Below the pieces are notes generated by a model. It ran no database searches. It had not been told where the DNA came from and saw nothing but the letters and a program-made list of their open reading frames with translations. This document shows positions 25,885 to 48,964 of a stretch of 48,964 bases of DNA, in pieces. The stretch lies in assembly GCA_022508985.1 (NCBI GenBank), contig JAFLUA010000013.1, forward strand, positions 1 to 48,964, read 5' to 3'. The first letter of the stretch is position 1. Every line of letters starts with the position of its first letter. The position numbers and the translations under genes were made by a program. This stretch comes from Muribaculaceae bacterium. GTDB lineage: Bacteria > Bacteroidota > Bacteroidia > Bacteroidales > Muribaculaceae.

Positions 25885-25957
25885 GCCGCAATAGCTCAGT
25901 CGGTAGAGCATTTCATTCGTAACGAAAAGGTCGTGGGTTCGAGTCCCACTCGCGGCT
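25885..25957 (+). tRNA. tRNA-Thr (anticodon CGU, reads ACG)
   Basis: The 73 bases fold into a full cloverleaf: acceptor GCCGCAA/TCGCGGC (one A-C mismatch at 6-67), D arm GCTC/GAGC, anticodon loop TTCGTAA with CGT at 25918-25920, and T arm GTGGG-TTCGAGT-CCCAC. Discriminator base is T at 25957; CCA is not encoded. The anticodon stem has an A31-C39 mismatch. Its 3' end is the attachment site of the integrative element that follows; the core repeat restores the sequence, so the tRNA is intact. Confidence 0.95.
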
Positions 25958-25959
25958 CA
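25945..25959 (+). repeat. attL core
   Basis: cccactcgcggctca, covering the T-arm 3' strand and acceptor stem of the tRNA plus two bases beyond it. Identical to 33909-33923. Confidence 0.9.
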
Positions 25960-25965
25960 TAATAT

Positions 25966-26000
25966 ACTCGCTAACACACTGAATGTTAGCGAGTTTCTTA
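25966..26000 (+). terminator. Element-borne terminator downstream of tRNA-Thr
   Basis: A perfect 11-bp stem actcgctaaca/tgttagcgagt (25966-25976 with 25984-25994) with a 7-base loop, followed by ttctta. It lies just inside attL and would end the tRNA transcript now that the original terminator (33925-33958) is 8 kb away. Confidence 0.7.
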
Positions 26001-26015
26001 TTAAAAACAAGCGAC

Positions 26016-26039
26016 AATAAGCAACCAATAAGCAAACTT
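26016..26039 (+). repeat. Putative integrase arm site, left
   Basis: A 24-bp sequence beginning aataagcaaccaataagcaa that recurs exactly and in the same direction at 33774-33797. Each copy contains two aataagcaa units 10 bp apart, the usual look of arm-type sites for tyrosine integrases. A further related stretch (ttaaaaacaagcgacaataa) adjoins it, and its counterpart adjoins the right copy. Confidence 0.7.
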
Positions 26040-26277
26040 CAACACATACTTTCTTATTGAAGCCTTATACTTTGACTTTGTGATTAGATTAAATCTGCTG
26101 CCACACTTCACAACGAAGCAGAGCAAGATATAGTGAAAGTCCAAAAGGGGTACGGGGGTATATGGCCGTTTTCATACCAGGGCCGTGGTGCAACCCTAAA
26201 AAATTTTTTTTCATTTTTTTGCAGCTCTGCGACAATTTCACAAAGTTCTCAACCGCTTCGTTTGCCTTGTGCTATCG
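26040..26277. other. Non-coding left end of the element
   Basis: About 240 bp without a credible gene. It holds two nearby ggggta/gggggta units (about 26147-26161) and a long T-rich run at 26205-26220. It may contain recombination or accessory protein sites. Confidence 0.5.
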
Positions 26278-26317
26278 AAAAAAATGTAGTGCCGCCCAAA
26301 GCGAGAGCGACACTACA
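26278..26317 (-). terminator. Terminator of the leftward element operon
   Basis: Read on the minus strand: an 11-bp stem with one wobble pair (26307-26317 with 26285-26295) followed by seven T. It lies 21 bp beyond the stop of the last gene (26338). Confidence 0.75.
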
Positions 26318-26337
26318 AATAAGAGTGAAAAAGGCAA

Positions 26338-27009
26338 TCACATTACAGCATTGAAAAATCGTTGCTGTTTGGCTTTGATTTTGGCCTTGTCTGCATCTGT
26401 TACTCTGTCGTCGCGTAAGGCATTATAGGCGTTGCACAACATTTCGGCTCGTTGGTTGGGATTGTCTATACCGGCGAAGCTCTCGATTGCATCGGCAAGA
26501 TTATAGCCGCGACTGCAAAGCGTTTTATGCAGTTCCGCAAATTGCTCTGCTATCTTCATTGTTGCGACTTCATCGGGATTGAGAGTGTGCGTGTAAATAT
26601 CAATGATTGACTGCTTCAAGTTCTCACTTGGTTGCCAGCCATTGGGAGTTACGATTATATCCTCAATCGCAACGACTTTGCTTTGTCCGTTTATTGAATA
26701 CCGAATAGGCACGACTGCCGACAATCCGTCAATCCATTGGTTGAGGTCTGCGCCTAAAGAATTGTATGCAGCATCAAGTGCTGATTGGTGCATATATTCG
26801 GGTGCATTTGTCTCGGCTAACCACGCCTTACAAGAGTTAAGCACTTCATCGCGCTTATAAGTTAAACCGCTTTCAAGTGTGCGCTTGTACTCCTCTAACC
26901 CGCCGTAATCGGCAAAGTATGTTTCAGTCTTGCTGATTGCGTTCTGCAAGGCTTTCAATGCACCCTCCAACGTGCGAGGCGCTACAACATAAGAATAAGT
27001 CTGTTTCAT
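26338..27009 (-). CDS. Element protein of unknown function (223 aa)
   Basis: I do not recognise this protein. It is soluble and helix-rich, with no signal peptide, membrane segment or catalytic motif that I can name. Two regions stand out: a strand-rich stretch PIRYSINGQSKVVAIEDIIV (about 100-120) and a helical, charged C-terminus ending KAKQQRFFNAVM. It is the last gene of the minus-strand operon, directly before a strong terminator, the place where satellites and prophages often put accessory or interference genes. Function is open. Confidence 0.7.
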   Translation of the reverse strand: MKQTYSYVVAPRTLEGALKALQNAISKTETYFADYGGLEEYKRTLESGLTYKRDEVLNSCKAWLAETNAPEYMHQSALDAAYNSLGADLNQWIDGLSAVVPIRYSINGQSKVVAIEDIIVTPNGWQPSENLKQSIIDIYTHTLNPDEVATMKIAEQFAELHKTLCSRGYNLADAIESFAGIDNPNQRAEMLCNAYNALRDDRVTDADKAKIKAKQQRFFNAVM

Positions 27010-27020
27010 ATCAAAAAAGG

Positions 27021-27200
27021 TTAAGGTTTGACAATAAAGTTAAGTTCTCGCGCGGCTCGGTCGAAAATTTCCCAGTCGGGCTCATCTTCTTGCGATTGAG
27101 CCGTAGAGATTGATTTCGCCTTTAGGCCGCCCAACTCTTGGCGGAGCGGTTGGATTGCGGTTGCTTCCGCTATCACTTCAGTTAGTGTTTTAGTGTTCAT
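27021..27200 (-). CDS. Small element protein (59 aa), unknown
   Basis: A short frame, MNTKTLTEVIAEATAIQPLR at its start, ending FDRAARELNFIVKP, with an ATG at 27198-27200. It is amphipathic and acidic in the middle (QEDEPDWEIF). It lies 11 bp before the 223-residue gene and 77 bp after the preceding stop, so it fits the operon. No homologue is recognised; spacing and lack of an overlapping competitor support it. Confidence 0.55.
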   Translation of the reverse strand: MNTKTLTEVIAEATAIQPLRQELGGLKAKSISTAQSQEDEPDWEIFDRAARELNFIVKP

Positions 27201-27277
27201 AACAATTAGTTTCTTGATTAGTGAATATTATTTTTTGTCGCTATCGGTTTTAATTTTTCATTAGGCAGACCTTAATT

Positions 27278-27586
27278 TTATATCTGAATCACATCATCAC
27301 GCAGTATCGTGTCGCAATTTATAAGCCATTCTCCGTTTGCGTAGGCTTCAGCAAGTGATTTCGCCATGCGCTGGGTATTATAATCTTTTAAGAGGTTACA
27401 CGCACTGACGCTTGCCGAACTTGTTTTGATGTTGGGATTGATAGCAATTTTATAGGCTTCACTCTGACTATATCCCATCATTAAAAGCAAAAGGAAAAGT
27501 TTGGTTTGTGGGTTGGGATATGTTTCGGAGGTGGGTATGTATTTAGGCGGTCTTGGTTTGCGCCTATCAGGTGCTTTCATCTTCAT
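27278..27586 (-). CDS. Small protein with terminase-small-subunit-like helix pattern
   Basis: 102 residues from the ATG at 27584-27586 (a TTG at 27607 would overlap the upstream gene). A basic, Pro-rich N-terminus (PDRRKPRPPKYIP) precedes helices in KLFLLLLMMGYSQSEAYKIA and a Ser/Ala-rich turn leading to NLLKDYNTQRMAKSLAEAY. This is the order seen in Terminase_2 small subunits (helix, 'G-s-xxAY' helix-turn-helix, 'sas-sa-LL', terminal helix), which recognise phage DNA packaging sites. The match is by pattern only. If real, it supports a phage-satellite identity of the element. Confidence 0.5.
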   Translation of the reverse strand: MKMKAPDRRKPRPPKYIPTSETYPNPQTKLFLLLLMMGYSQSEAYKIAINPNIKTSSASVSACNLLKDYNTQRMAKSLAEAYANGEWLINCDTILRDDVIQI

Positions 27587-27590
27587 CAGT

Positions 27591-27974
27591 TCAATTCTTA
27601 TAGTCAATTACATAAACAGGATTGCGTTCCTCATCAAAGAGTTTAATAAGGCGATTGTCATGCAGAGGAAAGCCGATAACAGGCTCATCCTCTTTCTCGG
27701 TGTTCACGATTAGTACCCAGTGTGCGCCAACTGCTTTCGCATCTTCTAAAGCGTCCTCGCTGAAAGCAAAGGCTTTGTTCTGAAATTCCGAATCTTTGCG
27801 GTACGATACAAAGAATGTGAAAGGCTTGTCAGGTCGTATGTCAATCCAAACATCAAGCACTTTTTTTGATTTCGACAACTCAAATTTAGTTATCGCAGGT
27901 TCGGGAAACATTGTTGCCTTTGCCGCTGCGAGCAGGCGGTTGGCAAGCTGATAGTTGTTAAGATTTTGTTTCAT
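27591..27974 (-). CDS. Element protein of unknown function (127 aa)
   Basis: The ATG at 27972-27974 (MKQNLNNYQLANRLLAAAKA) is taken as the start, 19 bp after the 262-residue gene; a longer frame overlapping that gene is not needed. The protein is a small alpha/beta domain with strands in FELSKSKKVLDVWIDI, PFTFFVSYRK and AHWVLIVNT and a final VYVIDYKN. It resembles small phage-encoded regulators or a nuclease-like fold in outline only; no catalytic residues are evident. It lies directly before the terminase-like gene, 4 bp apart. Confidence 0.65.
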   Translation of the reverse strand: MKQNLNNYQLANRLLAAAKATMFPEPAITKFELSKSKKVLDVWIDIRPDKPFTFFVSYRKDSEFQNKAFAFSEDALEDAKAVGAHWVLIVNTEKEDEPVIGFPLHDNRLIKLFDEERNPVYVIDYKN

Positions 27975-27993
27975 AAATTGATATATTAAAGAG

Positions 27994-28782
27994 TTAATAG
28001 ATATTGTATTTGCTTCCTTTGTCGGTCGGATTTCCGTCCTTGTCAATAGGCTTGTGCCGTCTGCATACTTCGTGCCATCTGCACCGCTTGGGATTACAAG
28101 AGTTAAACAAGGCGCATCGGGCGCAACTCTGCCTTACAGGTGGGCGGTGTCCCTGTCGGCAATAATGCCGCCATAAGTGGCAAATGTCGAAAGCACCGTA
28201 TAAAATTGGCAAGGTATCGGTTATTCCGTTGCTGATTGTGTGGTCGGTCGTAAACACCATTGCCGATTCCATTGTGCGAGGCAAATAGTATGTTATTGTG
28301 CTATACTTCCCCCTCAATCGCTCCACGATAGCCATATAATCATTCTCTGTGCCGTAGCCGAGAATCAACCAATCTCCGGCTTTTACGCTTATTATGTCCT
28401 GCGACAATAGCGTTAAGAACTGCATATAACTAAAGGCGACGTTAAGATGCTTGCGTTCCTTATACCTTTTCCATTTTATTAAAGTCGAGGTAGTTGCGGT
28501 TCTTATATTGCAGTTGAGCAAAGAGCCGAAGTCGTCTTCGCCTATTGGATAAGCTGGTATGTTTATTTCAACTCCGTTGCGCTTAATTCTCGCTTGAAAG
28601 CACCATTGCCGTAAAACTTCGCGGCTTATGCAGTCGGGGCGTAGAATAACGAACAAATCGTTGTCGGTTATTCTGTCCGATACCGAGAGCACTTCAACAT
28701 CGGAGTTATGTGTTACAGGCGAAACGGATTCAAAGGTTACGTCGCGCCCAAAAGTCTTTTGAAATAAGTACTGTGTGTTCAT
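27994..28782 (-). CDS. Element protein with C-terminal Cys cluster (262 aa)
   Basis: Unrecognised. The N-terminal about 190 residues are alpha/beta, with GDWLILGYGTENDYMAIVERLRG as a notable segment (residues about 136-158). The last 60 residues carry a dense run of cysteines and histidines (C201, C208, C220, C223, C229, C234, C240; CARCALFNSCNPKRC), suggesting a zinc or iron-sulfur site. Its ATG overlaps the stop of the primase-like gene by 4 bp (ATGA), so it is translationally coupled and probably works with replication. A role as primase partner or DNA-binding protein is an inference. Confidence 0.65.
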   Translation of the reverse strand: MNTQYLFQKTFGRDVTFESVSPVTHNSDVEVLSVSDRITDNDLFVILRPDCISREVLRQWCFQARIKRNGVEINIPAYPIGEDDFGSLLNCNIRTATTSTLIKWKRYKERKHLNVAFSYMQFLTLLSQDIISVKAGDWLILGYGTENDYMAIVERLRGKYSTITYYLPRTMESAMVFTTDHTISNGITDTLPILYGAFDICHLWRHYCRQGHRPPVRQSCARCALFNSCNPKRCRWHEVCRRHKPIDKDGNPTDKGSKYNIY

Positions 28783-29690
28783 ATATGTTTCAGATTATCA
28801 AGTAAAACATCGGCTATATCGGTATTTACCACATATTCGGGCAAGTCCTGCATCACTGGGCGGTGGTGTATGTTGTACCCTTTACACTTCATTTCCTCAA
28901 CTATCACGCCCCATTTGCTCTCACTCCCTTTGTCTGCATAAACAAACACACGCCTGTCGCGTAGAACGTTGCATTTATCAATTTTGAAGTTGCCGCATCC
29001 GCAAGTTGCCAGCCACACCATAGACGGAAATACTATGCTACAAACAACTGCGCTCTTCTGTGATTCGACGATTGCCACATTGCTGTCGGGTTGTTCGGTT
29101 AACAGGTGTTCACCGAAGAAGCAAGGCGAGTATCGAAATCCGTTGGGATAGTTGACTTTCAGCTGCTCTTTTTGCTCCTTGCCGTAGTAATGATAGCACA
29201 CATTCCCTCTATGCAAATCTTCGCCATAATTCAGCACCATAACGTCCGTAACCCGTCCGTCAATGCTTATACATGGATAAGCGGTGTTGGCGTTGACACT
29301 CTGCACAAGATAGCGACTTATGGCCTGCGCCACATCTTCCATATCAAAAACGTTACACATAGCCTTTGCAAAGTCGCATCGCATCGCTTCCTCAACCGAT
29401 TGCCGCGATTTCCATTCACTCACATCGCCCCAGTCTATTATTGTGGGTGTCGGCTTAATGTAGGTGGTACAAGGTACTGAGGTTGGTCTGCGTTCGGGGT
29501 TCTGCTTGAAATAGTCTGAGGGTGTCAAGTGATAACCGCAACTCTGCTCATGGTCGCATCGTCCACAAGTCGGGTGCAATATCTCGCCAGTTTCATTGTC
29601 AATGTAAGGGACAAAAGACCTTTGTTCACATTCGGGGCAAATGTCTTTTCCACCTTGCCGATATGGTCGTAATCTATATTTATGGTTCAT
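28779..29690 (-). CDS. Primase-like protein with zinc ribbon and TOPRIM-like region
   Basis: 303 residues. Cysteines C18, C21, C42 and C45 (CPEC...CGRC) form a DnaG-type zinc ribbon that in primases binds template DNA; C51 is nearby. Further on, VAIVESQKSA (E209) and VFVYADKGS (D253) match the first two acidic motifs of a TOPRIM fold. The protein resembles the DUF6371 family of Bacteroidales mobile elements. It lies just after the iteron region and downstream of the RepA-like gene, a standard plasmid/satellite replication arrangement. The primase role is inferred from motifs. Confidence 0.75.
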   Translation of the reverse strand: MNHKYRLRPYRQGGKDICPECEQRSFVPYIDNETGEILHPTCGRCDHEQSCGYHLTPSDYFKQNPERRPTSVPCTTYIKPTPTIIDWGDVSEWKSRQSVEEAMRCDFAKAMCNVFDMEDVAQAISRYLVQSVNANTAYPCISIDGRVTDVMVLNYGEDLHRGNVCYHYYGKEQKEQLKVNYPNGFRYSPCFFGEHLLTEQPDSNVAIVESQKSAVVCSIVFPSMVWLATCGCGNFKIDKCNVLRDRRVFVYADKGSESKWGVIVEEMKCKGYNIHHRPVMQDLPEYVVNTDIADVLLDNLKHI

Positions 29691-29756
29691 ATTATCAAAA
29701 ATTAAAGTATTTTGCCGTCTTTGCTCATCGCTTTCGGCTGAAATTCAATTATTATT

Positions 29757-29865
29757 AATAGTCCACTTTGTCCGTTTTTAGTCCACTTCGGACTTTTAAC
29801 CTTTCGCCCTAACAAATAGTCCACTTTGTCCGCGTATATATATAATACGCGGACTAACGGACTAA
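29757..29865. repeat. Iteron cluster with palindrome, candidate replication origin
   Basis: An 18-bp sequence, aatagtccactttgtccg, occurs exactly at 29757-29774 and 29815-29832; a shorter copy (tagtccactt then cggac) is at 29779-29793. Two inverted copies of its end, cggacta, are at 29850-29856 and 29858-29864. Between lies a perfect 10-bp inverted repeat, gtccgcgtat/atacgcggac (29828-29837 with 29845-29854) around an AT-only loop. It sits between the RepA-like and primase-like genes. Confidence 0.65.
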
Positions 29866-31103
29866 AAGGGTAGGTTTTCATCCGGGACAATTAAAACATA
29901 AGGAGAGTGGGAGTTTTCGGGGTCAGTTTTCTTCAGTACGTTAAGACTGACTGCTTTTGTTATCTTGTTTCCTGCGGCTGTTTTCTCCAGTCCGTCACGT
30001 TCATTTAGACGTGTGATTATTTCCTTATGTCTTAATTCGGTATCATCTCCGAAAATTCGCTTGAAGTTTTGATAAAAACCTTGTCGCTCTCTGTCGGTCG
30101 CTTCCTTTATAATCGTACCCTCATCAATCAAAAAGCCTGTTTCACTATTGATAGCAAATATCATCGGCTTCGCATCCGTCGTGTCAGCGTGTCGGCTCTC
30201 AATAGTGTGAATTTGAAACACTCCGTTATCTTTTTTGACACGGTAAGTTTCTTCTGCTTTTTGTGTTAGGATAGTGCCTAAATGTCCACGTGGAGAGTTG
30301 TCCTGCCCTTTGTTTTCGTGTAGTAAGCAAACAATTAATCTATCATTAGCAAGTGGGCTTAAACGCTCAAAAAAATTCTTACATTCTTCAGGGTCGTTAA
30401 AGTTGTTTACCATGTCCACAATGCCGTCAATAAATACGATTTCGGGATGGTGTTGTTGGCATTTCTGCTCTACCTTATCAAGTCGCTCACTTATCGGGAT
30501 ATGTTTCACTGATAGTACTTGAAACTCTTTCGGTCGCTTCAGTTGCTTGCGGAAAGTTCGCAACTTCTTTGATATAAAACTTGGAGTTTGTTCTGTATCT
30601 ACCATAAGAATTTTGTTTGCGGTGCAATTCGGTGTAAAACCTGCAAAAGGTTCTCCATTTATCAAGGCGAGAGCAAGAGCGTAACATCCGGTTGTTTTCC
30701 CCATTTTTTGCTTCCCTATCATTCCATCAATGCCTTGCTTCGGAAAAGCTGGGTGTCCGTAGATTTCGCCATACATCTCTATTTCCATAATGTTGTCCTC
30801 TGAAACAAAATCGCTATCATCGTAAAAAGTCACGATTTCAACCTCAATCTTGCTCTCGGCATCTGAAAGTATCTGCTTGATTAAGCCGTTGCCATATTCT
30901 TTTGACAATAGCTTTTCAATCTTACGCCTCAAAGGTCTTTCTATCGTAGATAAGTCGCTAAACTCTTGCGTATTGCCGAATATTTGCGTATCTTTGTACT
31001 GCAAGCCATTAGCACCACTCGGAAAGTTATGTTGAGAGCCGAAAGTCGTAGCGGTGGCTTTAAGAGGGGGCGAGCTTATTGGCTCGCTTTTTCTTATATC
31101 CAT
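29862..31103 (-). CDS. RepA-like AAA ATPase / replicative helicase
   Basis: 413 residues from the ATG at 31101-31103, 2 bp after the HTH gene. A RecA-fold ATPase: Walker A GKQKMGKTT at residues 130-138, then MVDTEQTP, and Walker B EIVFIDGIVD at 221-230. This order (also a 'HEN' sensor-like stretch about 250) is characteristic of the hexameric plasmid helicase RepA/DnaB-like group. The C-terminal part (about 330-400) looks like a winged helix (KEIITRLNERDGLEKTAAGNKITKAV). Its TAG stop lies inside the last repeat of the iteron cluster. It probably unwinds the element's origin after excision. Confidence 0.85.
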   Translation of the reverse strand: MDIRKSEPISSPPLKATATTFGSQHNFPSGANGLQYKDTQIFGNTQEFSDLSTIERPLRRKIEKLLSKEYGNGLIKQILSDAESKIEVEIVTFYDDSDFVSEDNIMEIEMYGEIYGHPAFPKQGIDGMIGKQKMGKTTGCYALALALINGEPFAGFTPNCTANKILMVDTEQTPSFISKKLRTFRKQLKRPKEFQVLSVKHIPISERLDKVEQKCQQHHPEIVFIDGIVDMVNNFNDPEECKNFFERLSPLANDRLIVCLLHENKGQDNSPRGHLGTILTQKAEETYRVKKDNGVFQIHTIESRHADTTDAKPMIFAINSETGFLIDEGTIIKEATDRERQGFYQNFKRIFGDDTELRHKEIITRLNERDGLEKTAAGNKITKAVSLNVLKKTDPENSHSPYVLIVPDENLPF

Positions 31104-31105
31104 GA

Positions 31106-31390
31106 TTAACGCCCTTTCATACAATATCGGTTAGCTTCTTCCTTAATCTCTTGGGCGGTTGCTATTCGGTTCTGCTGAAGCCACTGCTCCAACTCATTAC
31201 GGTTAAAGTAACACATTTTGCCCATAGGCTTGTAATGCGGGACTGCACCGCGCATCGTCAATTTGTACAGGTAACTTTTTGATATCCCCATATAGGCCGC
31301 TGCTTCATCAGAAGTCAGCACCTCTTTTGTCGTGAAAATTGTATTTGCCGTGATAAGGTCGGCAACCTCTTTTAATTGTTCTTTACTCAT
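31106..31390 (-). CDS. Helix-turn-helix DNA-binding protein, excisionase type
   Basis: 94 residues. The segment LTSDEAAAYMGISKSYLYKLTMRGAVPHYK, continuing KMCYFNRNELEQWLQQNR, is the winged helix of the MerR/excisionase (HTH_17) family common in Bacteroidetes integrative elements. Such proteins act as recombination directionality factors or regulators of the replication genes. It is the first gene of the leftward replication operon and follows a promoter about 100 bp upstream. Confidence 0.85.
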   Translation of the reverse strand: MSKEQLKEVADLITANTIFTTKEVLTSDEAAAYMGISKSYLYKLTMRGAVPHYKPMGKMCYFNRNELEQWLQQNRIATAQEIKEEANRYCMKGR

Positions 31391-31486
31391 ATATGCGAGT
31401 TTAAGAGTTAATGAAAGAGGCTTCGGGTTAGGCGCGTCCGCTTGTCCTTCGCCTTGTTATATATTGTTCTCGCGCTGAAAACATAG

Positions 31487-31495
31487 GCAAAGGTA
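31487..31495 (-). promoter_or_regulatory. -7 box (TACCTTTGC) for the element replication operon
   Basis: A TAnnTTTG match on the minus strand, about 97 bp before the HTH gene. Just upstream (31516-31534) an 8-bp sequence, aagtgtgg/aagtgtgc, occurs twice, a possible operator. Confidence 0.6.
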
Positions 31496-31546
31496 TATAG
31501 TAAAACAAGCTATAAAAAGTGTGGAAAAGTGTGCAGTTAGTGCCAC

Positions 31547-31573
31547 TAAAAAAGGCCACCTAATTAAGTGGCT
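31547..31573 (-). terminator. Terminator of the integrase operon
   Basis: On the minus strand, a gccac/gtggc stem (31555-31559 with 31568-31572) with an A+T loop followed by ctttttt. It lies just after the stop at 31578 and separates the integrase unit from the replication operon. Confidence 0.65.
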
Positions 31574-31577
31574 TTCA

Positions 31578-32504
31578 TTATTCTAAAAATAATTCATCTA
31601 TCTTCTCTCTCCATTTTTGTACTGCTTGACTTTTTCCAGTATCTACATTTTGTTGCATTGCTCTGTCGAGTCTTGGTTTTGTATTAAAAGCCCTTTCTAA
31701 CTGTCTAATTTCTTCGGCTTGTAATGTATCGGTTCGCGCAGGGCAATATACTTTAACAAGGAAATACGCCAATCTCGCTTTCCCTCCTCTTTCTCCCCCA
31801 TATAGCCATCTATACCCTTTTGTAGTTGGTTCCATAAAACCATTTTGAATTGCCTTAGCAAAGTATTTTACGGCTCTATCCGTCTTTATGATACTTATTT
31901 CCGTAGAAGCCTCGCAATTGGATATTTTTGACAAAACTCTTTCCGCCCTCTCTCGCGTTCCAAATAAATGCCAATGTTTTTCAATATCGAAGCCGTCAAA
32001 GATTTTTACATCATATTCTTCCTGTATGGCTTCCAAACTGATTTCACGCTCGGCAAGGATAACGGCAAGTCTTTCCGCAAAATATAAATAGTCATTTCGC
32101 CAACTGGTATAATAATCTTCAATAGTTCCATAGTATATTGTATCATCTACACTTCTCAACTGCTCGCTCCATCTATTATAACGAAACGCCCACCGACTGA
32201 ACTTTTGCAGGATTTTACCAATAAATCTCGTTACTTCTTCCTTTGAAACTCGTTTGCACTCTATAACATTATCCTCAACTTCCTCAAACAAAGCACTGAA
32301 TCCGTTACTATTATATAGCCATACCTTTGCTTTTTCGGTGCGCTCCGCTATCTCGGCAAGCACATCATCATTATAACGCTCGGCTCTTGTAGATGTTCCG
32401 CTACTGATTCCGCAGTGCTTCCATAACACCATATCAAGAGCCATATCCGCAGCTCCGTCAATGTCAAACTCGGCAAAAAACTTGTTTTCTAAATCCTTAT
32501 TCAT
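31578..32504 (-). CDS. Element protein of unknown function (308 aa), next to integrase
   Basis: The ATG at 32502-32504 is 10 bp after the integrase stop; a TTG start at 32525 would overlap it. The protein is helical, rich in Arg, Glu and aromatic residues, without signal peptide or membrane segment. The last about 100 residues (KYFAKAIQNGFMEPTTKGYRW, then GGERGGKARLAYFL) resemble a DNA-binding helical module found in many Bacteroidales integrase-adjacent proteins. I do not recognise the rest. Pairing with the integrase suggests regulation or assistance of recombination, or a superinfection function. Confidence 0.7.
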   Translation of the reverse strand: MNKDLENKFFAEFDIDGAADMALDMVLWKHCGISSGTSTRAERYNDDVLAEIAERTEKAKVWLYNSNGFSALFEEVEDNVIECKRVSKEEVTRFIGKILQKFSRWAFRYNRWSEQLRSVDDTIYYGTIEDYYTSWRNDYLYFAERLAVILAEREISLEAIQEEYDVKIFDGFDIEKHWHLFGTRERAERVLSKISNCEASTEISIIKTDRAVKYFAKAIQNGFMEPTTKGYRWLYGGERGGKARLAYFLVKVYCPARTDTLQAEEIRQLERAFNTKPRLDRAMQQNVDTGKSQAVQKWREKIDELFLE

Positions 32505-32514
32505 ACTTTCTAAA

Positions 32515-33723
32515 TTAAAACTCAAGTGTCGGTAAACTATTGATTGCTGCCGCTTTCAATTCATCTACGGCTCGCGTATATTTTTCGGTGTGGCGGAGGT
32601 CGCTATGTCCTAACAAGCTGGCAACCGTCTTAATGTTTGCACCGTTGCTTAATATGTTAGTGGCGAAGCTATGACGTCCGCAATGCCATGTAATATGTTT
32701 GTTAATCCCTGCTCGCTTAACCCAGTGGCGTAATGCTTTCAAGCACATTGTGTGCGACGGCAAAGGAAAAATAAACTCATCTTTTGCGCCTGTTCCAATC
32801 AAGTTAAGCAAACCATCATTAAGCGGAATAGTAACCCAACTTGCAGAGCTATGTCCTTTTGTCTTGGCTTGTTCAAACTTAATAAAGCGGTTAGTGTAGT
32901 CTACGCAACCAAATGTAAGGTCTTTTACATCACACCAGCGCAAACCACAATACAAGCAAAATATAAATGCTCTCCGTATATTAGGGTTCTCTCGGTCGTA
33001 ATGTGTGGCTATAAGCGTTTTTATTTCCTCTTGGCTCAATATATCTTTTGTGAGTTTGTTTTTGTCGATTTTGATACTCACACCCTTACATGGATTTTTG
33101 CGAAGTACATCACGCTCAACCGCAACCAATATCACTTTCTTAAACCTTGCATATAGAGTATGTGGTGTTTCGCCGTTAAATTTGTGTTGCAGATATTCGG
33201 TATAAGCAACAATCATATCCTTTGTAATCTGTTCGGGTTTAAGGCGGTCAGCATACTTGCTATATTCGGGTGTTTCCCTCATACATTCAATAAACACTTC
33301 TTTTGCTCTCTGCAATTTGTTCTTGTCAGTCTTGGTGTATGAAGCAACAAAACTATCATACCAATCGTAAAAGTTAATATCCTTATCTTTTTTAAGCCTA
33401 TAGCCCTTCCCTTGTTCCAGCAATTCCTGTCCACGTTCAAAACGTATCTTCTTTGCAAGCTCAAGGGTCTTACGATTGTTCTCACGTTCAAGCGGTGTGC
33501 GAGGTGCTTGCCACAAATATAAGTCTAACCGTTCAGTCTTGCGATTGATTTTCCTATATGTAGTGCCGTTCTTGCTTTGGGCAAGCTCAAACCCTAAATA
33601 ATATTCAAGATAGAGCGATTCACGCCCGTCTTGCAATATTTGAGCCATCAATTTAGTTTTATCGCCTTTTTTACCCTCAATAAGTCGAGTATTATTGGCT
33701 CTATAGCTCTTTTTTGTTGCCAT
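32515..33723 (-). CDS. int: Tyrosine-type site-specific integrase
   Basis: 402 residues. An N-terminal arm-binding domain (about 1-100) is followed by a SAM-like core-binding domain (about 115-215) and the catalytic domain with the tyrosine-recombinase residues: R262 (CGLRWCDV), a lysine at about 287-289, H347 and R350 (HCGRHSFAT), H373 (LLGHSDLRH) and Y382 (EKYTR). It would insert the element at the 3' end of tRNA-Thr. It lies next to attR and is transcribed away from it. Such proteins are typical of Bacteroidales integrative elements and prophages. Confidence 0.95.
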   Translation of the reverse strand: MATKKSYRANNTRLIEGKKGDKTKLMAQILQDGRESLYLEYYLGFELAQSKNGTTYRKINRKTERLDLYLWQAPRTPLERENNRKTLELAKKIRFERGQELLEQGKGYRLKKDKDINFYDWYDSFVASYTKTDKNKLQRAKEVFIECMRETPEYSKYADRLKPEQITKDMIVAYTEYLQHKFNGETPHTLYARFKKVILVAVERDVLRKNPCKGVSIKIDKNKLTKDILSQEEIKTLIATHYDRENPNIRRAFIFCLYCGLRWCDVKDLTFGCVDYTNRFIKFEQAKTKGHSSASWVTIPLNDGLLNLIGTGAKDEFIFPLPSHTMCLKALRHWVKRAGINKHITWHCGRHSFATNILSNGANIKTVASLLGHSDLRHTEKYTRAVDELKAAAINSLPTLEF

Positions 33724-33750
33724 GTTTTCTATTGATTTCGTTTACTTTAC

Positions 33751-33759
33751 ACAAAGTTA
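33751..33759 (-). promoter_or_regulatory. -7 box (TAACTTTGT) for int
   Basis: A TAnnTTTG match on the minus strand, 28 bp before the integrase ATG, directly beside the right-hand arm repeat, so integrase binding could repress its own gene. Confidence 0.65.
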
Positions 33760-33773
33760 CGAATAAAATTTTT

Positions 33774-33797
33774 AATAAGCAACCAATAAGCAAACTT
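33774..33797 (+). repeat. Putative integrase arm site, right
   Basis: Exact copy of 26016-26039, same direction, followed by a near copy of the adjoining stretch (ttaaaacaagcgaaaataag). Confidence 0.7.
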
Positions 33798-33908
33798 TAT
33801 TAAAACAAGCGAAAATAAGGGCAAACACGAAAGAGGATAAAATCGCTAAACTTCTGATTTTCAACATACTTAAATTCTCATACTTTCCTATGTTTTCACG
33901 GTTTTAAG

Positions 33909-33923
33909 CCCACTCGCGGCTCA
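33909..33923 (+). repeat. attR core
   Basis: cccactcgcggctca, identical to the 3' end of tRNA-Thr at 25945-25959. Marks the right end of the element. Confidence 0.9.
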
Positions 33924-48884: not shown

Positions 48885-48964
48885 AGGGGGCGGTTACCTA
48901 CTTTCCCACTTTCGCAGTATCATCGGCGCGGCAAGGTTTAACTTCTCTGTTCGGAATGGGAAGA
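48885..48964 (-). rRNA. rrf: 5S ribosomal RNA, 3' part (runs off right edge)
   Basis: The minus strand reads cttcccattccgaacagaga and then agttaaac, the conserved loop B/C region of bacterial 5S rRNA, and continues to gtgggaaagtaggt and the closing helix. About 80 bases are present. The 5' part, and presumably the 23S and 16S genes, lie beyond the window. Confidence 0.92.

Follow-up and report, generated by a model that had tools for sequence, protein, structure and literature searches.

How would a small integrated element spread if it carries neither a recognised relaxase nor recognised phage structural genes? The question is raised by a locus in contig JAFLUA010000013.1 of a Muribaculaceae bacterium (order Bacteroidales; assembly GCA_022508985.1). 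The window, meaning the whole stretch of DNA that was analysed, comprises 48,964 nucleotides, and the element, here called E1, occupies 7,979 bp of it (25945..33923, both att copies included). An initial annotation, made from the letters alone, had proposed a phage satellite. We find E1 to be a complete integrative element in which no relaxase is recognised, and with moderate confidence we consider it most likely to spread as a phage satellite. This reading is strengthened because one of its proteins, p3, is of the small-terminase (TerS) type, and because the gene cassette around p3 recurs in elements with different integrases and replication genes, again without a recognised relaxase.

A complete element at tRNA-Thr

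Both ends of E1 carry the same 15-bp att core, CCCACTCGCGGCTCA, letter-perfect at 25945-25959 and 33909-33923, as the initial annotation had stated. A tRNA-Thr(cgt) gene, which remains intact, overlaps the left copy with its 3' end. The 3' part of this gene and the right end of E1 have 15 bp in common; in 91 control 1-kb windows from the same contig, no such match exceeded 9 bp. An exact 24-bp repeat inside both ends, at the usual place of integrase arm sites, looks like a pair of such sites. We also searched the joined flanks of E1 against the 49 genomes of the genus. The tRNA region was matched in 47 of them, and G025, alone among the 48 other genomes, aligned past the joint (query 148-294, 84%), with an apparent related terminator behind the tRNA. 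It is therefore likely to represent an empty E1 site; the remaining matches end at the tRNA end and are uninformative. E1 is a complete element, site-specifically integrated at tRNA-Thr. Its ten genes all lie on the minus strand, in the order p10 (integrase end) to p1 (tRNA end), with lengths given in amino acids (aa):

25885..25958, plus strand: tRNA-Thr(cgt), target for integration (ARAGORN; Rfam tRNA, 65 bits)
25945..25959, plus strand: att repeat, 15 bp, tRNA side (repeat search; chance control)
26016..26039, plus strand: 24-bp repeat, candidate integrase arm site, tRNA side (repeat search)
26195..26337, no strand assigned: non-coding block in common with a second element, E2, starting with the operon terminator; candidate cis site, either packaging site or origin of transfer (oriT) (blastn, alignment)
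26278..26317, minus strand: terminator-like hairpin and T run behind p1 (predicted fold; T run by eye)
26338..27009, minus strand: p1, 223 aa, no known family; common to E2 and a third element, E3 (homologue searches)
27021..27200, minus strand: p2, 59 aa, no known family; common to E2, 95% identity (homologue searches)
27278..27607, minus strand: p3, 109 aa, predicted stand-alone TerS-type DNA-binding domain (profile and structure comparison; homologue in a fourth element, E4)
27591..28046, minus strand: p4, 151 aa, no known family; common to E2 and E3 (homologue searches)
27994..28782, minus strand: p5, 262 aa, no known family; C-terminal cysteine cluster (open reading frame, comparisons)
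28779..29690, minus strand: p6, DUF6371 and zinc ribbon, primase-like (Pfam 1e-32 and 5e-24; NCBIfam)
29757..29835, no strand assigned: iterons, candidate replication origin (repeat search; shuffle test)
29862..31124, minus strand: p7, RecA-like (AAA_25) RepA-type helicase (Pfam 4e-11)
31106..31390, minus strand: p8, HTH_17 excisionase-type protein (Pfam 1e-13; NCBIfam 'excise' 1e-12)
31578..32525, minus strand: p9, 315 aa, without a Pfam or NCBIfam family (family scans)
32515..33723, minus strand: p10, tyrosine integrase (Pfam 4e-22; PHROGs; NCBIfam)
33774..33797, plus strand: 24-bp repeat, candidate integrase arm site, integrase side (repeat search)
33909..33923, plus strand: att repeat, 15 bp, integrase side (repeat search; chance control)

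The integrase, the excisionase-type helix-turn-helix (HTH) protein, the RepA-like helicase and the primase-like protein named by the initial annotation were all recovered by Pfam at the E-values listed, and PHROGs matched the integrase, the HTH protein and the helicase. The two minus-strand operons proposed at the outset were not retained. Because of the gene spacing, with gaps at 31391-31577 (without repeats) and 29691-29861 (with iterons), the genes suggest three units instead: p10-p9, p8-p7 and p6 to p1. The place after the primase is taken by p5 to p1. A very weak likeness links p5 to the primases of E2 and E3, and its cysteine cluster resembles the end of the E3 primase by eye; p5 might be a primase remnant.

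The absence of relaxase and structural phage genes noted initially is borne out. Apart from a marginal PHROG TerS match of p3, no relaxase or phage structural family was found at E <= 1 for the ten proteins in Pfam, PHROGs and NCBIfam, scans in which most matches above 0.1 are lost through HMMER's filters. Elsewhere in the window, a 5S rRNA gene (48885..48964) is truncated by the contig end.

The small-terminase-type protein p3 and its cassette

The p3 profile matches a TerS profile with a probability of 94.6% (E 6.7e-8). Without the phage sequence fetched by the p3 profile itself the values are 94.0% and 1.4e-7, and with a five-row p3 profile that includes the weak G060 sequence they are 96.0% and 4.3e-9. 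The elements' own HTH_17 proteins, used as a control, reach 0.7%. In a structural comparison of p3 with 67 candidates, the top three are small terminases. Moreover, the p3 homologue of E4 on its own matches the PHROG terminase small subunit (2.9e-6) and, under the cut-off, Pfam Terminase_2 (2e-4), and an IMG/VR phage contig carries a p3 relative that is a TerS, 3.3 kb before the large terminase (TerL). The profile was also run over 7,741 frames from 109 partly overlapping sequences (108 loci and the window), where the five best non-members are TerS or TerS-like proteins. The first of these is a 168-aa protein of the Streptococcus satellite phage Javan304, annotated as hypothetical and TerS-like through its match to L035. 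In agreement with the initial TerS-like call, p3 is thus predicted to have the fold and sequence signature of a TerS DNA-binding domain. Its 109 aa leave no room for the oligomerisation and TerL-binding parts that small terminases usually have.

When the element's own genome was searched at the DNA level, matches of 86% and 92% to 26098-27996 came up on two contigs, where C1 ends and where C2 begins. The two pieces (G000 C1:348784-355738 and C2:1-856; L016, L017) probably form one element, E2, of about 7,857 bp, with the contig break inside p1 and ~46 bp missing as judged against E1. An 18-bp repeat, TTTGTTGCCTTGGAAGGA, lies before the E2 integrase and recurs on C2, where a tRNA-Gln has its 3' end. 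E2 has another integrase, an HTH protein, a DUF5906 helicase and a Toprim primase (PF00589 and DUF5906 above the Pfam cut-off, HTH_17 below), followed by p4, p3, p2 and p1. Amino-acid identity between the two elements is 83% for p4, 78% for p3, 95% for p2 and 92-93% for p1, whereas beyond 26098-27996 blastn found no DNA similarity (E 0.01). One edge of this shared block coincides with the p5 stop codon; the other lies 58 bp from the arm repeat. Thus, p4-p3-p2-p1 is a cassette common to two tRNA-integrated elements with different integrases and replication genes in the same genome.

The conservation extends to the non-coding block behind p1. Here, 118 of the first 120 columns and 139 of 144 in total are identical between E1 and E2, near the level of the best coding part. 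The predicted fold of 26165-26345 is better than those of 200 shuffles (z -4.3), with a terminator-like hairpin at its start. In the 48 other genomes of the genus the block gave only short matches (best 28 nt, E 9.4e-4), and it had no match in plasmid records.

The single-protein p3 search in 397 genomes of the family matched only the own genome and G381. The latter holds E3, which is flanked by 18-bp repeats with 6,986 bp between them. By eye, the right repeat seems to lie at a truncated tRNA 3' end; ARAGORN reports no tRNA there. The initial annotation had suggested looking for the gene block at tRNA genes elsewhere; it is found at one in E2, while for E3 the tRNA end is seen by eye only. 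E3 encodes an integrase, an HTH protein, a DUF5906/VapE-like helicase and a Toprim primase, then p4-, p3- and p1-like proteins at 21-37% identity; HTH_17 and DUF5906 exceed the Pfam cut-off, and the integrase is visible by its SAM-like domain only. E1, E2 and E3 are of similar size, with the cassette at the same place. E4, in a genome of another Bacteroidales family (G659), has an integrase, a 366-aa protein, an HTH protein, a D5_N-DUF5906 protein and p3. A tRNA-like 3' end lies beside its integrase by eye, with none reported by ARAGORN, and its far end is beyond the contig. Beyond the E4 p3 (L105:1-612) a gene starts with a MATGAGKT motif; it may be cargo of the element and reads, we presume, like a restriction-system helicase. 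In total, p3 is present in E1-E4, all of them integrated elements, which have three kinds of replication genes between them; p4 and p1 are shown in E1-E3 only, and p2 in E1 and E2 only. A relaxase inside E1, or relatives with structural or conjugation genes, had been named at the outset as signs of another type of element. E1 has no recognised relaxase, and no recognised structural or conjugation gene was found among the scanned proteins of E2-E4.

Wider searches added little. Across 393 genomes of the order, the p3 profile matched seven: the own genome, G659, more weakly G060 (a p3-like gene at a contig start), and G564, G579, G498 and G463. The last four were dropped; in G498, PHROGs found no terminase in the three scanned of seven open reading frames of at least 110 aa. 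Nothing beyond G659 itself was found in the seven genomes of its genus. The p1 profile matched the own genome, G381 and weakly G375 in the 397 family genomes, the own genome, G546 and G589 in the 393 order genomes, and G381, G375, G232 and G327 in the 111 genomes of G381's genus. Of these candidates, G546 (internal stop), G589 (842-aa frame) and G375, G232 and G327 (459-461-aa frames, taken as an unrelated gene) were dropped. In a genome-contig database scan, the p3 alignment found nothing and the p1 alignment only the E3 contig.

Replication chassis, helper and alternative modes of transfer

The candidate origin of the initial annotation is supported by the iterons, where 11 near-identical 12-mer pairs compare with 0 in 20 shuffles. 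Helicase-primase gaps of two related loci behave alike, with 7 such pairs in L044 (relaxase annotated) and 10 in L046 (none annotated), and by eye the L044 gap has the motifs GTCCG, GTATATATA and CGGACTAA in common with E1. The corresponding gaps of E2, E3 and E4 hold 2, 0 and 1 pairs, at or near shuffle level. By this comparison, the iterons are therefore a trait of E1's chassis and not of the whole group.

This chassis weighs against transport by phages. The E1 helicase family occurs at nine places in six of the 49 genus genomes. Scanning a selected set of downstream open reading frames (18 proteins) at the eight loci other than E1 revealed a relaxase in six (Mob_Pre in L018 and L019; Relaxase in L021, L023, L024 and L025) and a NikA-like gene near the contig end in L022. 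The closest chassis is L019, with helicase, DUF6371 primase and Mob_Pre in succession. L044, a circular record from Bacteroides finegoldii, has the order integrase, HTH, HTH, AAA ATPase (helicase), Toprim primase, MobC, relaxase. Helicase and primase of the E1 types thus appear to sit mostly in relaxase-bearing elements and not in a known phage-inducible chromosomal island (PICI). Helicase loci without an annotated relaxase exist as well (L046, L020), and therefore the absence of a relaxase alone is no proof of a satellite. For L020 (G004:C85:10000-26000), no mobilization gene or relaxase was found in the three downstream frames tested; this locus also has a tandem pair of integrase-like matches and two matches to HTH. 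Furthermore, a search for TerL in E1's genome with phrog_2 found none and hence no helper, other TerL families not being searched. The sole match (2.3e-4) was rejected as TerL, since we take the protein to be PhoH. The phrog_2 search is unspecific because it also matched in 13 of 14 control genomes.

Further comparisons describe the same helicase family. MOB-suite typed L044 and 12 other plasmid matches of the helicase as non-mobilizable, despite the annotated relaxase of L044. No match was found between p6 and the Toprim gene beside the L044 helicase, the p3 profile had no member in the eight helicase loci, and the E1 helicase was not found in IMG/VR. Five short, unannotated human faecal phage-sample records (MT836227, MT836591, MT836017, MT836458 and MT837234; L039-L043) carry the same helicase family without p1, p3 or p4 and may be other packaged small elements.

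Taken at face value, the chassis would suit an integrative mobilizable element of the NBU/Tn4555 kind known from Bacteroidales, whose relaxase was lost or was never present and whose oriT is recognised in trans (iOriT); p3 would then be no more than a DNA-binding regulator with a TerS-like fold, and the strongly conserved non-coding block could be the oriT. We consider this unlikely. E1 has no relaxase, and its genome as assembled has no PF03432 relaxase (a match in one of 14 control genomes), Mob_Pre relaxases not being searched genome-wide. The non-coding block has no match in plasmid records and only short ones in the 48 other genus genomes, p3 recurs in E2-E4 despite their differing replication genes, and its TerS match is far above that of the HTH_17 proteins.

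Alternatively, the cassette could be a phage-interference module, in which p3 poisons the terminase of infecting phages and protects the host while the element stays unpackaged. Lacking the part that binds TerL, a TerS DNA-binding domain could be a dominant inhibitor, and interference is one face of Rpp, a protein of E. coli PICIs (PMC6739421). However, PADLOC gave only weak matches (p5 to Cas4c, 0.0046; p7 to mad8, 0.014) for eight of the ten E1 proteins and two from E2/E3, and this reading explains neither how an element without a relaxase is transferred nor the conserved non-coding block. A purely defensive role is therefore quite improbable. Least convincing, and very improbable, is a tailed-prophage remnant that kept integrase, replication genes and part of terS: the presence of these genes, the PHROG matches and the missing capsid genes would fit, but E1 has ten open, closely spaced genes and exact ends, E1-E3 have similar sizes with the cassette at the same place, and the helicase/primase pair is related to those of relaxase-bearing elements.

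The phage-satellite reading of the initial annotation hence stands in part. The TerS-type p3 and the recurrent cassette speak for it, whereas the missing phrog_2 helper and the company that the helicase and primase types keep speak against it.

Known satellites and a proposed change of vehicle

The overall layout of E1 is reminiscent of E. coli PICIs with Rpp such as EcCICFT073, described as small islands with an integrase, an HTH regulator, primase/replication genes and an origin, and without structural genes (PMC6739421, PMC6092414). As outlined in PMC6739421, Rpp is small and has an N-terminal domain similar to the DNA-binding domain of lambda TerS, and its heterocomplex with the helper TerS halts helper packaging and redirects packaging to the island. 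p3 is likewise a small protein with a TerS-like DNA-binding domain. E1 differs in its recognisably Terminase_2-type p3 and its RecA-like helicase with DUF6371; no common gene family was recognised. Gram-positive PICIs/SaPIs and Javan304 likewise place an integrase at one end, a primase in the middle and a TerS-like gene near the far end (Javan304 map). The Javan304 protein has 168 aa as compared with about 105 aa in p3, and no common replication or regulator genes were recognised. PICMI elements of Vibrionaceae resemble E2 and E3 in their minimal gene set, integrase, HTH_17 and DUF5906, while E1 lacks DUF5906 and no Fis match was found among the scanned E1-E3 proteins; the word terminase is absent from the main text of the PICMI paper (PMC10803314). 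From the Bacteroidales side, L044 shows the E1 order of integrase, HTH, RecA-like helicase and primase, with repeats between the last two, and L019 has the helicase and DUF6371 primase in common. In both, a relaxase stands where E1 has p5 to p1.

Of the PICI features listed in PMC6092414, namely a specific attachment site with integrase, primase/rep with a conserved origin, an Stl/Rpr or AlpA/MerR regulator and, in some, a terS homologue, E1 has the first, p7, p6 and iterons as candidates for the second, only an HTH_17 excisionase-type protein that might stand for the third, and the DNA-binding domain of a terS homologue. Induction by a phage, interference with it and packaging in its particles are also PICI features, which E1 would show only together with a helper. 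From the PICMI model (integrase, AlpA/HTH_17, DUF3987/DUF5906 primase, Fis; PMC10803314) it has the integrase and HTH_17 only. An iMOB is defined by its own relaxase, a family that the ten-protein scans at E <= 1 did not return, and none of the tailed-prophage genes (large terminase, portal, capsid, tail) is found in these proteins.

If E1 is a phage satellite, an Rpp-like role is the most likely action of p3, since such a role suits a TerS DNA-binding domain that stands alone; Rpp is the closest precedent that has been worked out. During helper phage growth, p10 and p8 would excise E1, and p7 and p6 would replicate it from the iterons. p3 would join the helper TerS, or a partner such as p1 or p4, and the complex would direct the helper TerL to a site on E1, perhaps the non-coding block 26195-26337. 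E1 would then enter helper capsids, and helper packaging would drop.

More tentatively, and with less than even confidence, we hypothesise that a Bacteroidales mobilizable-element chassis gave up its genes for conjugative mobilization, received in exchange a movable cassette for packaging (p4-p3-p2-p1 and a cis site) built around p3, and so became a phage satellite. This may have involved at least two replication chassis (RecA-like helicase with DUF6371; DUF5906 with Toprim), with p3 also on a third (D5_N-DUF5906), and the elements would form an undescribed satellite group of the Bacteroidales. Among the matches listed in open-paper title searches, no title describes a Bacteroidales phage satellite. 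The parts of E1 are of known kinds, and their combination is without description among those matches.

Bacteroidales are major gut bacteria, and a satellite group among them would therefore be noteworthy. If the proposal is true, the way of travel of E1 to E4 is a plug-in, and the exchange of one cassette can convert conjugation into phage transport. A small, testable redirecting protein would also be gained, and p3 beside p4 and p1 would serve as a marker for further elements of this kind.

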